DNA of 64,000 bases from Bernardetiaceae bacterium (GTDB lineage Bacteria; Bacteroidota; Bacteroidia; Cytophagales; Bernardetiaceae). Each line of letters opens with the position of its first letter. Within the stretch, counting starts at the first letter, position 1. A program made the position numbers and the translations under genes. The notes under the pieces were generated by a model. It did not search any database, was not told the origin of the DNA, and saw only the letters and a program-made list of their open reading frames with translations. This document shows, piece by piece, positions 4,575-58,190 of the stretch. The DNA lies in contig JAFIER010000242.1 of NCBI GenBank assembly GCA_020832465.1, positions 1-64,000 on the forward strand, written 5' to 3'.

Positions 4575-5282
4575 TTATCTAACTCTGCGCTCTCTTTTTT
4601 CAGGGGCTTTGAACCTTACAGTGCCAAAACCTCTGCTTGCACCCTTTCCGATACCGATGTAGTTAGGTAAAAACAAATTGGTTTGGAATCTGATAGAAAA
4701 AGCACTCAAAGGCGTAGTTTTATAAGGTACGACATAACTGCTTTCAATTTCCTCGATAAAAAGTTCGAATTTGTTCTCTATGTGCCAATCTAAACCTGAA
4801 GCCATGCTTAAAATATTACCTTTTAGTATGCACTCTAAAATCGAGATGCGTTCGCCAAGCCCCTTTGCATTTTGATATTTTTGATAATTTTCACTATTGA
4901 GCGCAAGCCAATAGTTGATGCTATAGGTGCGTAACTCTTCACAAACATTGAGTTCATACTTTTGCATATCGAGTTTTTCTATACGCAAATCAATTTCTTT
5001 GTTGTGTAATAGAATGCGCCAATCTGACTTTTCAAATAAATGATGAATCTCATCTACGGCATCACCTAAGCAAACCATAGCAGCCTTGCCAAAAAGACGT
5101 TTGTATTGAATACGAGGGTAGCGGTATAGCAATTTAGATTCGCCCGTCTCCTTATCTAAAAAATGATGATGAAAAGCCACGTGCGCCTCTCCCACTTTCG
5201 TAGCTACAGCCCCACGAAAGGCACTCACCTGCTCGAAATGAAGAGGGAGGTCAAAGCCCACTCGTAAATAGCGTAATTCCAT
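4575..5282 (-). CDS. cas6: Orphan CRISPR-associated endoribonuclease Cas6 (Cas6b type)
   Basis: Cas6 enzymes cut CRISPR transcripts at the 3' base of the repeat hairpin. This 235-residue protein shows the Bacteroidota Cas6 pattern: His cluster at 38-40, YRYPRIQYK at 53-61, the WLALN stretch near 125, GLDWHIEN at 163-170, and the C-terminal glycine-rich loop GIGKGASRGFG at 210-220 that ends the family. No repeat-spacer array, cas1, cas2 or effector gene is present in the 64 kb, so it is a stand-alone cas6 here, flanked by hairpin repeats. It may serve an array elsewhere in trans or have another RNA substrate. Family assignment is confident; the role is not. Confidence 0.85.
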   Translation of the reverse strand: MELRYLRVGFDLPLHFEQVSAFRGAVATKVGEAHVAFHHHFLDKETGESKLLYRYPRIQYKRLFGKAAMVCLGDAVDEIHHLFEKSDWRILLHNKEIDLRIEKLDMQKYELNVCEELRTYSINYWLALNSENYQKYQNAKGLGERISILECILKGNILSMASGLDWHIENKFELFIEEIESSYVVPYKTTPLSAFSIRFQTNLFLPNYIGIGKGASRGFGTVRFKAPEKRERRVR

Positions 5283-5436: not shown

Positions 5437-5479
5437 ATATTAGAACTAACAGTTCTGGCAGAACTGTTAGTTCTAATAT
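5437..5479. repeat. A-family hairpin, perfect 20-bp stem
   Basis: Left arm ATATTAGAACTAACAGTTCT, spacer GGC, and an exact complementary right arm. It lies 8 bases from the 3' end of rocD and could terminate its transcript, though no long T-run follows. Confidence 0.75.
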
Positions 5480-6725: not shown

Positions 6726-7240
6726 ATTTTTTTTTAAGATTGATAATTTGCATTTGCGTCACTTTGATAAAGCCTTGGGGTAAAGTTCAAAACTGTATTG
6801 TGTTTGCTGAGGACCGCAAAAACGGCAGGTGTAGTTGTTTTTAGACTGTTCTAGAACTACCTACACCCAATTGCGCCCTTAAGCCCCCAGCTTGCTCAAA
6901 GTGAAAAATAAAGATACAATTTTTTTTGTAGCAAACCAAAAATAAGCACCAGCACTTTTTTATTACTCCTACAGGTATCTGTTTATGAACTGATTAGCTA
7001 AATAATAACTGGAATTACGCAGCTTCATAACTAACAGTTTTCAAAAAACTGTTAGTTATTGTTTATCAGCATGTTGAAAAATAACATTTCTCAGAGAAAT
7101 GTTATTTGTAGTTTTTACATTTTTTTACAAAAAAAGCGATAAAAAATTTTGAAAAAAAAAAAAAAAAATAAATTACTTTTACAATATAAATTTAGCTAAG
7201 TGTATTTTTTTTATATTTTGTACTTTAAACTATTTATTTT
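6726..7240. other. Gene-free gap: repeats and an A-tract
   Basis: Contains an inverted repeat around 6823-6870 (AGGTGTAGTTGTTTTTAGA / TCTAGAACTACCTACACC), a partial K-family element (7006-7110), and a run of 16 or more A residues near 7151-7168 upstream of the small secreted protein gene. No coding frame is convincing. Confidence 0.6.
7006..7110 (+). mobile_element. Partial K-family composite element
   Basis: Starts TAACTGGAATTACGCAG, then an A hairpin (7027-7059), the linker TATCAGCATGTTGAAAAA, and a B hairpin (7077-7108). The same order occurs on the other strand at 10692-10830. The distal end is missing or diverged in this copy. Confidence 0.65.
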
Positions 7241-7453
7241 ATGAAACAATTTATTTTGATAGCTGTACTGGTTGTTCTTCTTACCGTACCTTTACTTCCT
7301 CCTGTTTCCCTTTCTCAAAATCAACAAGATTATGACAACGATTGCTTCACAGAAATGGGAGACAACCAAGTTCGTTATAGTTTTGATGGTGAGCCTAATA
7401 ATTTCAAAAATATGCAGATTTCTATTTGCTATGGACACCAAACACGGCGATAG
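7241..7453 (+). CDS. Small secreted Cys-pair protein (paralogue 1)
   Basis: A 70-residue product with a clear signal peptide (residues 1 to about 25, ending near SLSQ) and a short mature part with two cysteines. The segment YSFDGEPNNFKNMQISIC resembles the second small protein encoded at 8731-8928 (FSYDDKPEEVRNLGNVNVN), so the two are paralogues. The last residues (HQTRR) and the stop codon come from an E-family repeat, so the original C-terminus has probably been replaced. A lipoprotein gene follows 150 bases downstream. I recognise no known family; a secreted peptide or signalling role is only a guess. Confidence 0.55.
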   Translation: MKQFILIAVLVVLLTVPLLPPVSLSQNQQDYDNDCFTEMGDNQVRYSFDGEPNNFKNMQISICYGHQTRR

Positions 7454-7545
7454 TAGCTGTCTTTAGCTGAATTATAGAACTAACAGTTTTCGAAAAACTG
7501 TTAGTTCTTGAAACTACCTAAGTCGATTTGCTAACTTGACATACA
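7430..7545 (+). repeat. E repeat + A hairpin + right end of C element
   Basis: In order: GGACACCAAACACGGCGATA (E motif), a perfect A hairpin at 7476-7508, and CTAAGTCGATTTGCTAACTT leading to GACATACAC (the C-family end). Looks like a truncated C element into or next to which E was inserted. Confidence 0.6.
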
Positions 7546-7602
7546 CTCGCAAGAAGTCTAAAACTAATTATTTATTTTACACACACTAAAATTACAAGTA
7601 TT

Positions 7603-8313
7603 ATGAAATTTCAAAGTATAGTTTATGCCATTGTTATGGTATTCTTATTTTCGGCATGCCAAAAAGAGACACAGCAACTCACCGAACTTTCGGAAAAAGA
7701 GCGTGCCAAGCAAGAGTTTATAGCCGAACTTCCAAAAATGATTGAGGAGAGCAAAACATGGTCTTTTGGAGTGAGACCCAATGTATCGCAAGAGGAGCAT
7801 GCCGCTTTTTTGAAGCGTGAGCCGGGTGCAAAATATACCTTGAGCTTAATGAGCAACAAAAATTTCGACGGCGATTGGCGTAAAGCCTCTGCTATTGTAC
7901 GCCAAAATAATGAAGATTGGGCAGATATGCCTGCCGCTTTTATGACCGCTCAAGAGCAAAATGGTGCGATGCTCAAAGATTGGCTTTTAAAAGAAGAAAG
8001 CACGCCTGAAGTGCAAGAAGCTATGGCGTACCATTTGCAAGCCTTAGTCGATTTTGGCAATCATGATTATCGCCTGATTGCACGCACCCTCAATGCACTC
8101 AAAGGACATTGGACAAGCGAAGAGATACGCAATTTCGCCACACCTTGGCAGCAGAAATTAGCCGAGCACAAACGCAAATTGGAGCAACCTTTAGAAACCG
8201 AGGGACTTAGCGAAGGCAAAATTGAGGCGCAGAAACTAATACGTAGCAATGGTATTTATATTGCTCAAGATGCTGAAAAGTGGTTTGAGCGTGCGCTTAC
8301 GCCAGTGAGGTAA
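7603..8313 (+). CDS. Lipoprotein of unknown function (paralogue 1)
   Basis: A 236-residue protein with a lipoprotein signal peptide and lipobox FSAC (Cys19). The rest is mostly helical and charged without a recognised domain; WSFGVRPNVSQEEHAAF around residue 50 and a C-terminal KLAEHKRKLEQPLETEGLSE segment stand out. The latter resembles KLAEGRKKVTDPTPKEGFES in the lipoprotein at 8966-9655, which also follows a small secreted protein gene, so the pair was probably duplicated. A perfect B hairpin with a T-rich tail follows the stop codon. Confidence 0.7.
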   Translation: MKFQSIVYAIVMVFLFSACQKETQQLTELSEKERAKQEFIAELPKMIEESKTWSFGVRPNVSQEEHAAFLKREPGAKYTLSLMSNKNFDGDWRKASAIVRQNNEDWADMPAAFMTAQEQNGAMLKDWLLKEESTPEVQEAMAYHLQALVDFGNHDYRLIARTLNALKGHWTSEEIRNFATPWQQKLAEHKRKLEQPLETEGLSEGKIEAQKLIRSNGIYIAQDAEKWFERALTPVR

Positions 8314-8326
8314 GCAAAAAAAATTA

Positions 8327-8381
8327 AGATATAACAAATAACATTTCTTAGAGAAATGTTATTTGTTATATCTTTTTCTTT
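8327..8381 (+). terminator. B-family hairpin acting as rho-independent terminator
   Basis: A perfect 22-bp stem (arm starts AGATATAACAAATAACATTT) with a 3-base loop lies 14 bases after the lipoprotein stop and is followed by TTTTTCTTT. The outer ten bases of the stem (AGATATAACA) are unique to this copy but fully complementary. The following 300 bases to 8678 are AT-rich and show no gene. Confidence 0.75.
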
Positions 8382-8678
8382 ACTGCTCCGTATCATAGGG
8401 TGTTTGAAATATTACAAATTCGTATATTATTACAGTGTTATCAAGTCAGTAATAGTATTTATTGAAGGGGTATTACTATTAAATCGCCTTTCAAAAATAT
8501 AAGATTCTTAGCACTAAATCGTATAAAAAGAATAATATCACCATAATTTTATGTAAAATCAAAAAAAAACAGTTAAAATATTTGCTTTTTTTTTTTTCAA
8601 TATATTGCTTTTGATATATCAATTTTATTTAAAATGTAGTATTGCATTGTATTGTTTAACATTTAATGATTTTTAATT

Positions 8679-8928
8679 ATGAAAAAATTATTGTTAATCA
8701 TCATTTTCTCAATGACTTATTTATTGTCTTTTGGAAATGGTTGTGGTAGCAGGGCAAGATGATAATGGTCCTTTTACCATTCAAATAACTTATGAATCTA
8801 GTGGACCTTGCGATGATTACGCTAGCGTAGATTTACGTAGTGGTCAAGGCTTTTTCTCTTATGACGATAAGCCAGAAGAAGTCAGAAATTTAGGAAATGT
8901 TAATGTGAATCCTTGTTTCTCAAATTAA
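8679..8928 (+). pseudogene. Small secreted Cys-pair protein (paralogue 2), apparently frameshifted
   Basis: ATG 8679 encodes a good signal peptide (MKKLLLIIIFSMTYLLSF) but that frame stops soon after (near 8760). The mature part lies in the next frame (8731-8928, ending NPCFSN) and carries the FSYDDKPEEVRN segment shared with the protein at 7241-7453 and two cysteines. A one-base change near 8730-8750 would join signal peptide and mature domain at the expected length (about 80 residues). Either a real frameshift mutation or a sequencing error; less likely the second frame is translated alone from ATG 8737 without export. Confidence 0.6.
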
Positions 8929-8965
8929 TTATTGTGTTTTATCACCTTTAATCCCTTATATCATC

Positions 8966-9655
8966 ATGAAATATGTAATTATTTTTATTCCATTACTTTG
9001 TTTGCTTTTTGCTTGCAAAGAGTCAGAGTCTGTTACGACAACAGCAAAAGTCCCACAACCCATAAGTGCGTCGCAGCCGCTGCTTCTTGATCATTCACCT
9101 GATGGACTCGGGCTTGTATTCATATGCAAAGAAGGCACAAAAATGAAGGTACTTCATTCAGGCATCTACAACGAAGTCCGTAATGTTTTTTATGATAACC
9201 ATTCGGACAATCACGAGGCGACGCATGAGTTTATGCAAAACTATTTGCAAGACATTGCAGACGAAGATGTGCGCTATGTAGCCGAGCAATTGGTCGCTCA
9301 ATACATGCTTATAGAAAACCTTTTGCCTTACGCAAGCCAAAAGAATCCAGAGATACAAAAGCTCATTGGTTTTTATGTAGAGGAATTGATAGCAAAAGAA
9401 AATAGCGAGATGACTTTAATCTATAACGGCATTGTCGCTATGGAGGGCTATTTAAGCCTTGATGTGCAGCAGGCACTTGCGCACCGTGCGCTTGCCATCG
9501 CCGAGGAGCGTGAGCAAAAACTTGCAGAGGGCAGGAAGAAGGTTACTGATCCTACTCCGAAAGAGGGCTTTGAGTCTGTGCACACCCTCATGAAAAAAGA
9601 GCATGAAGCTCGCTGTGAAGCTGTCGTACGTTTGAAAGCATTGGTAAATTCGTAA
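8966..9655 (+). CDS. Lipoprotein of unknown function (paralogue 2)
   Basis: A 229-residue protein with signal peptide and lipobox LFAC (Cys17). The body is predicted mostly alpha-helical. A segment ALAIAEEREQKLAEGRKK and the following TDPTPKEGFES match in pattern the end of the lipoprotein at 7603-8313. It starts 37 bases after the frameshifted small secreted gene, repeating the order seen in the first unit. Probably anchored in the outer or inner membrane facing the periplasm or surface. No family recognised. Confidence 0.7.
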   Translation: MKYVIIFIPLLCLLFACKESESVTTTAKVPQPISASQPLLLDHSPDGLGLVFICKEGTKMKVLHSGIYNEVRNVFYDNHSDNHEATHEFMQNYLQDIADEDVRYVAEQLVAQYMLIENLLPYASQKNPEIQKLIGFYVEELIAKENSEMTLIYNGIVAMEGYLSLDVQQALAHRALAIAEEREQKLAEGRKKVTDPTPKEGFESVHTLMKKEHEARCEAVVRLKALVNS

Positions 9656-10387: not shown

Positions 10388-10573
10388 ATAAAAATAAGGG
10401 TTTAAATACAAACTTAGCCTTATCAAATATCAAACCAAAATATAAAAATAATACAATCCCCAAAAAAATAATAATTAAGTCCACACTCAATCTTGTAATA
10501 AGTGTAGGTTAAGTTGATAAATTGACTTAGGAGGTTTCAGCACTAACAGTTTTCACGGTGCAGATACTTAAAA

Positions 10574-10620
10574 TAAAATTAGAAATAACATTTTTTCAAA
10601 AAATGTTATTTCTAATTTTA
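10574..10620. repeat. B-family hairpin, perfect 23-bp stem
   Basis: The left arm TAAAATTAGAAATAACATTT plus TTT mirrors the right arm exactly around a single base. The outer arm TAAAATT is specific to this copy. Confidence 0.75.
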
Positions 10621-10691
10621 TTGCATTATTCCTATAATCAACAAAAATATGCCACTTAGCCATCACTCAAAAAAACGTATAGCCGTGTTAT

Positions 10692-16936: not shown

Positions 16937-17053
16937 TCATACGACTTAGACATTCTCCATACAGAAATAACATGAAATTTTTAGAAATAACATTTCTGAC
17001 AGAAATGTTATTTCTAAAAATTTTCCATAGTATAGAGCTTGCAAAGCCTATAA
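16937..17053 (-). mobile_element. D-family element, diverged, inverted
   Basis: Starts CATACGACTTAGACATTCTC (the complement of the usual D right end), holds a perfect B hairpin with a 23-bp stem at 16975-17023 (arm AAATTTTTAGAAATAACATT), then TTTTCCATAG...GCTTGCAAAGCC and a degraded end. Confidence 0.55.
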
Positions 17054-25642: not shown

Positions 25643-26139
25643 TGAAGCTGTTTAAAAGGGCGTACGACAACTTTGCTAAATTAGCTCAGAAATAACATTT
25701 CTGCCAGAAATGTTATTTCTATGATTAACTAATTATCAATAACTAACAGTTTTCGAAAAACTGTTAGTTTTGAATCTTCCTAAGTCGATTTACCAACTTG
25801 ACGTACACCCGTTTAAAAGAACTAAGTACTTGCATAAATTTAGCTTATATCATTATTTGTGTTTGGTGGGGACTCCAAACACGGCGATAGTACCTGTCTA
25901 TGGCTGAATTTTAGATGTAGCCTTCAACCACCCCCTGCCCCTCCTAATCTTAGGAGGGGAGCTCGAAAATCCCACTCCCCTCCTTAAAAAGGAGCGAATT
26001 AAGGGGTGGTTCTCTCGCAAAGAGGGGACTAAAGGGTGGTTGAAAAATGCCTTACAAAAGCACACAAGCCAATGTACGCCTGTAGCTATTGTAAAAGCTA
26101 ATCTTATTGAGTTTTAAGAAATATTTTTAAACAGCCTCA
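25643..26139. mobile_element. I-family element with nested insertions
   Basis: Ends TGAAGCTGTTTAAAA and (complement) TGAGGCTGTTTAAAAA form an inverted terminal repeat. A 153-bp C element sits in the left terminal repeat and an E repeat at about 25859-25912. The inner part has CAACCACCCCCTGCCCCTCC and several GGAGGGG/CCCCTCC palindromes. A related unit lies at about 28590-28712. Confidence 0.6.
25658..25810 (-). mobile_element. C-family MITE-like element with exact 8-bp target duplication
   Basis: Terminal repeats GGGCGTACGACAACTTTG and CAACTTGACGTACACCC; inner B hairpin (25688-25721) and A hairpin (25739-25771). GTTTAAAA stands immediately before (25650-25657) and after (25811-25818). Same 153-bp length as the copy at 14169-14321, inverted. 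Confidence 0.85.
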
Positions 26140-33036: not shown

Positions 33037-33167
33037 TCGTCAGACTAAGTAGTCATACAGAATTTAGGCCTTTTAGTTTTTAATGATAGAAATAGCATTT
33101 ATAAACCCATTTTTCTATAGCATAGGGTTTGCAAACCCTATGCTATAGAAAAATGTATAGCAGTATG
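33037..33167 (-). repeat. D-family element, inverted, partly decayed
   Basis: CCATTTTTCTATAGCATAGG, GGGTTTGCAAACCC, CTATAGAAAAATGTATAGCA and GTATG at the right: the D left end in reverse. The B hairpin is reduced to ATAGAAATAGCATTT. Confidence 0.55.
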
Positions 33168-42200: not shown

Positions 42201-42301
42201 CATACTACTGTACCATTTTTCCATAGCGTGGGGTTTGCAAACCCCACGCTATGGAAAAATGGACTTAAAAATAACATTTCTCTTGGAAATGTTATTTCTT
42301 A
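42201..42301 (+). repeat. D-family element truncated at the right by murG
   Basis: CATACTACTGTACCATTTTT, then a perfect palindrome TTTTCCATAGCGTGGGGTTT and its complement, and a B hairpin AATAACATTTCTCTTGGAAA. The right terminal repeat is missing; 45 bases separate it from murG. Confidence 0.7.
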
Positions 42302-58011: not shown

Positions 58012-58190
58012 TACTACTATACATTTGCTAGTTAGCACTAACATTTCTTTGAAAAATATTAGTACTAACCCTATTTTATATCAATTTTAGAACTAACAGT
58101 TCTGGCAGAACTGTTAGTTCTAAAATTCAGCCATAGACAGCTACTATCGCCGTGTTTGGCGTCTTTACCAAATACGTAAATGCAAACTAA
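58012..58190. repeat. D left end, A hairpin and inverted E repeat
   Basis: CATACTACTATACATTTGCT and a diverged B stem (58034-58074), then a perfect A hairpin with a 21-bp stem (58083-58127; arm AATTTTAGAACTAACAGTTC), then GCTACTATCGCCGTGTTTGG (E, inverted). Confidence 0.7.

Follow-up and report, generated by a model that had tools for sequence, protein, structure and literature searches.

The window, the whole 64,000-nt stretch of DNA analysed here, holds a locus that the initial annotation had described as a tandem two-gene unit, with a small secreted protein bearing a pair of Cys followed by a lipoprotein, twice in a row. Its genes and repeats are as follows.

7241 to 7453, plus strand: ORF1, 70 aa, with a signal-peptide-like start and its last codons in a dispersed repeat; may be what is left of a gene for a small secreted Cys protein
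7418 to 7546, plus strand: copy of a dispersed intergenic repeat that overlaps the 3' end of ORF1 and takes up the greater part of the spacer before lipoprotein 1; its left end is diverged or truncated
7476 to 7508, no strand: perfect palindrome AGAACTAACAGTTTTCGAAAAACTGTTAGTTCT inside the 7418-7546 repeat
7603 to 8313, plus strand: lipoprotein 1, 236 aa, lipobox FSA/C; belongs to the family and has a predicted domain of helical hairpins
8326 to 8374, no strand: palindrome of a second flavour, AAATAACATTT, just 3' of lipoprotein 1
8679 to 8762, plus strand: ORF2 part a, a signal-peptide-coding frame from the ATG at 8679, with a stop after 27 aa
8731 to 8928, plus strand: ORF2 part b, a Cys-bearing body whose frame is +1 to that of part a and opens only with TTG
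8966 to 9655, plus strand: lipoprotein 2, 229 aa, lipobox LFA/C; paralogue of lipoprotein 1

Both lipoprotein genes were backed by codon statistics (z 9.6 for lipoprotein 1 and 7.4 for lipoprotein 2), and their products aligned with 26% identity across 108 aa (BLASTP E 3e-7), a score that none of 2000 shuffles reached. Judged by their sequences, the two are true paralogues. The KLAE segment singled out in the initial annotation is indeed common to both (KLAE-x-[KR]-[KR]-K) but forms part of a longer homologous stretch rather than an isolated motif, and the run after it, taken to be Thr/Pro-rich, is not notably so. In Bacteroidetes lipoproteins, the minimal surface-export motif is K-(D/E)2 or Q-A-(D/E)2 after the lipid Cys (PMC5080379). 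By this rule the motif is absent from both window lipoproteins, which read CQKETQ and CKESES from the lipid Cys onward, and because it is missing behind their lipoboxes, a periplasmic face is more likely for both proteins. A structure model of lipoprotein 1, built on three sequences, was all helical with hairpins (pLDDT 75), and a PDB fold search with this model matched no solved fold, nothing falling below E 0.19. Against PADLOC-DB, which covers anti-phage defence, the sole match was weak and partial (lipoprotein 2, E 0.007).

A search of 148 relatives returned one good lipoprotein match, in genome G039, with no related small gene alongside at that locus. A three-row profile run against 390 genomes of the order then gave matches in about 20 genomes (best E 1.8e-19), and 20 matched loci were retrieved, the genomes being a sample rather than an exhaustive set. 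Held-out profiles of the mature domain (alignment A4), built from other genomes only, with no window sequences and with the lipid-signal regions excluded, recovered lipoprotein 1 at E 4e-13 and lipoprotein 2 at E 9e-15; a held-out profile recovered the G039 member at E 5e-13, the best shuffle reaching E 7.7. Three sets of candidates were discarded: locus L143, which had been included in the family alignment and then failed the held-out profile test; the matches of a class-wide search, mostly limited to the lipid-signal end; and a viral match (L108) of 13 residues only. The lipoproteins matched no family in profile searches of Pfam, NCBIfam and PDB; the Pfam matches of 30 family members included no TPR family, and in PDB a TPR2A domain came up at no better than E 0.08. 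On this sequence evidence, the lipoproteins constitute an established and undescribed family of the order.

Tandem family lipoproteins were present in seven other genomes (G574, G606, G725, G731, G746, G554 and G635), most of these pairs having no small gene between the two lipoproteins. Of the supposed two-gene unit, it is the tandem lipoproteins that recur more widely, and the small-gene neighbourhood less so. In a tree of the family, tandem duplication apparently occurred more than once, with the window pair left unplaced. No third unit was found in the 1.6 Mb of the home genome (4.6 Mb in all) that were read directly with the better profile; in genomes of the same taxonomic family the flanking genes were present but not together, and a plasmid comparison gave no match.

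Whereas ORF1 and the two lipoprotein genes were open as initially annotated, the second miniprotein had no intact frame, its signal peptide and Cys body lying in different frames. The frame of the ORF2 body is closed by a stop at 8713-8715, and, as read from the sequence, joining the two parts would call for a shift of frame somewhere from that stop to about 8757; part b ends 37 nt before lipoprotein 2. The gap from ORF1 to lipoprotein 1 is 149 nt. Codon statistics gave z 2.4 for ORF1 and 2.3 for ORF2, with an antisense control also at 2.3, and therefore decide on neither. The two miniproteins had been presented as a related pair sharing two Cys. Their likeness proved marginal (BLASTP E 0.027 in a single comparison; shuffle p 0.01-0.04), and an ORF2 query against its own genome at E≤1 found only itself, not ORF1. 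The second Cys of ORF1, together with its tail and stop (ICYGHQTRR and the stop codon), is encoded by the edge of the dispersed repeat, copies of which elsewhere in the genome read, when translated, VVCVCWGHQTRR or AVCVWFGHQTRR, each ending in a stop. Because the ORF1 copy of this residue comes from the repeat, the shared second Cys is unusable as a mark of a family. Mature ORF1 modelled alone (44 residues) gave an unusable model (pTM 0.34), and PADLOC, Pfam, NCBIfam and PDB profile searches placed the small proteins in no family. The small genes of the window are probably remnants, and ORF1, with its weak codon signal and repeat-derived end, may be no gene at all. We infer decay rather than sequencing error, the frame break of ORF2 being known from one draft assembly.

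Searched against the genome, the region returned more than 100 other matches, nearly all short, to 7418-7546 and around 8336-8364. The core of the first repeat, CAAACACGGCGATAGTA, occurs with at most 2 mismatches at 76 places in the home genome and at 0-1 in each of ten relatives of the family, and other copies start TAAGTACTTGCATAAATTTAGTTTACATTATTAT and run on to CAAACACGGCGATAGTAGCTGTCTATGGCTGAATTTTAGAACTAACAGTT. This element, MITE-like and about 170 bp long, has a conserved left end and a central palindrome; it lies in the window at 7418-7546, 25855-25920 and 58089-58174 and on many other contigs, and is specific to the home genome among the relatives. The strict form of the palindrome was counted 266 times in the home genome and 6 times in another genus of the family, and was absent from the rest. 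Within the window, palindromes stand at 30 places (for example 5437-5479, 7027-7059, 7476-7508, 10572-10622, 16975-17023 and 58081-58129), with a four-part symmetry, AGAACT AAC AGTTCT nnn AGAACT GTT AGTTCT, and also in an AGAAAT/ATTTCT form; a third flavour, CATTTTTCCATAGCGTGGGGTTTGCAAACCCCACGCTATGGAAAAATG, lies at 33108-33155 and 42213-42262 and is repeated in the genome. None of the window palindromes falls inside an ORF of at least 130 aa. A role as terminators is unlikely, with 10 of 28 placed between divergent genes, and the retrieved flanks of the three Y1 transposase genes held no such palindromes. A Cas6b gene (Pfam E 3e-33) lies on the minus strand at 4575-5282 of the window, and the neighbours examined included no further cas gene. 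The palindromes number in the hundreds, are scattered between genes and in part lie within an element of about 170 bp, which recalls REP/BIME and MITE-type intergenic repeats, although the home-genome repeats were unmatched here in sequence to a described family. Small repeats fused to reading frames have been described for enterobacterial RU elements (Delihas 2007, PMC2759123). ORF1 is alike in that a small dispersed repeat ends an exported-looking reading frame; it differs in that the repeat is another one, in another phylum, and the fused frame may be dead.

In five other genomes, a family lipoprotein gene is preceded on the same strand, at 23-39 nt, by a gene for a small secreted Cys protein. 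Four of these five loci are orthologous (G078, G537, G635 and G751), and the independent count is therefore two, the other locus being that of G554, whose small protein has 8 Cys. The small proteins of the first locus are 43-98% identical to that of G078, which argues that the gene is maintained. A sixth genome, G546, has a pseudogene (L133:7747-7902) of the 8-Cys gene of G554 type (L126) before an intact lipoprotein, the same state as that of ORF2 and lipoprotein 2. As a control, 2 of 99 lipoprotein-like genes outside the family had such an upstream neighbour, and most family lipoproteins have no small neighbour gene. At the g54 locus, a tRNA-synthetase-like gene is followed by a helix-turn-helix gene of 52 aa, a secreted Cys protein of 93-100 aa, one or two family lipoproteins and an epimerase; G554 has a LuxR-type gene, then the 92-aa 8-Cys protein, the lipoprotein and, 438 nt on, a second lipoprotein. 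We take the unit of small Cys protein and lipoprotein to be real in other genera. In the window, the 37-nt spacing of ORF2 falls within the range of these genomes, and within about 60 nt upstream on the same strand neither lipoprotein has a Cys gene with signal peptide and intact frame, the frame of ORF2 being broken and ORF1 lying farther away. ORF1 and ORF2 showed no similarity to the KPCK...CC...GC small proteins of the g54 locus (p 0.5-0.85). Because no common sequence was detectable among the small proteins of the three lineages (window, g54 locus and G554), these are tied by neighbourhood alone. The proposed adjacency of the two families in related genomes accordingly holds for a small secreted Cys gene upstream of the lipoprotein, but the genes concerned are unrelated in sequence to ORF1 and ORF2, and those of the window look damaged.

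Considering these results, we tentatively favour, at somewhat less than an even chance, a family of helical envelope lipoproteins that in some lineages pair with a fast-changing secreted Cys partner, the partners in the window having apparently decayed. The locus would then consist of two tandem members of the undescribed family, each N-terminally lipidated, with an all-helical, hairpin-repeat-like domain, and most likely placed in the outer membrane facing the periplasm. Each would act as the binding partner, a docking or adaptor protein, of a small, fast-diverging exported Cys ligand. ORF2 would have been compromised by a frameshift and ORF1 by the dispersed repeat from which its 3' end now comes. 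As both small genes look compromised, the window lipoproteins may persist without functional partners. A bolder version is rather doubtful: an undescribed two-part envelope system in which the lipoprotein keeps its fold, whereas the small Cys partner is easily lost and gives way to unrelated proteins in different lineages.

It is also possible, if somewhat unlikely, that the lipoproteins are the sole genes here, ORF1 and ORF2 being no more than chance frames in AT-rich spacers, and that the small-gene neighbourhood elsewhere has no connection with this locus. The broken frame of ORF2, the repeat-derived end of ORF1, the indecisive codon statistics, the marginal likeness of the miniproteins and the many family loci without a small gene are all consistent with chance frames, but in each spacer a plausible signal peptide precedes a Cys-bearing body, ORF2 sits at a spacing known from other genomes, and the two bodies align slightly better than shuffles. 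An unlikely alternative draws on gene neighbourhood in genus g281, where the lipoprotein might serve as an NlpI- or LbcA-like adaptor that presents clients to an S41 C-terminal processing protease, with the small Cys proteins as clients or modulators. The usual order there is a gene resembling Zn-dependent phospholipase C, one or two family genes, a PDZ-S41 protease and a homogentisate-dioxygenase-like gene, identities that come from Pfam for G746 only and were matched by eye (N-termini and lengths) in the other genomes; at loci with two family genes, the first paralogue lacks a lipobox and has a membrane anchor in its place. In all seven g281 genomes (L125, L127-L132), a family gene directly precedes a gene for a protein of about 550 aa; Pfam identifies the one in G746 as a PDZ-S41 (CtpA-like) protease. 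CtpA is activated by LbcA, a lipoprotein of the outer membrane with helical repeats (PMC8764530), and the family resembles LbcA and the Prc adaptor NlpI in being lipoproteins with a predicted all-helical hairpin domain and, in g281, in adjoining such a protease. The window lipoproteins differ from both in having no TPR match, no sequence relation that could be found and no S41 neighbour, and they are much shorter than LbcA with its 11 TPRs; nor was an S41 gene seen near the f10 members. Decidedly unlikely, finally, is a secreted small Cys toxin aimed at neighbours or kin, paired with a membrane-anchored lipoprotein that confers immunity and whose gene outlasts the lost toxin gene. Such an arrangement would fit several observations: an exported small Cys protein is encoded immediately ahead of an anchored partner, the small proteins of separate loci are unrelated, the partners occur in tandem, and in G546 and the window intact lipoproteins stand next to broken small genes. 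However, the g281 lipoproteins are conserved without a small gene, beside an S41-type protease, which fits an envelope role, and the toxin families of PADLOC, Pfam and NCBIfam were unmatched.

ORF1 illustrates that a dispersed repeat can end a reading frame and mislead gene prediction. The lipoproteins form a family that matches nothing in Pfam or NCBIfam and recurs in a repeatable arrangement, as tandem copies and beside a small secreted Cys gene or an S41 protease, which provides testable partners for a putative envelope function.
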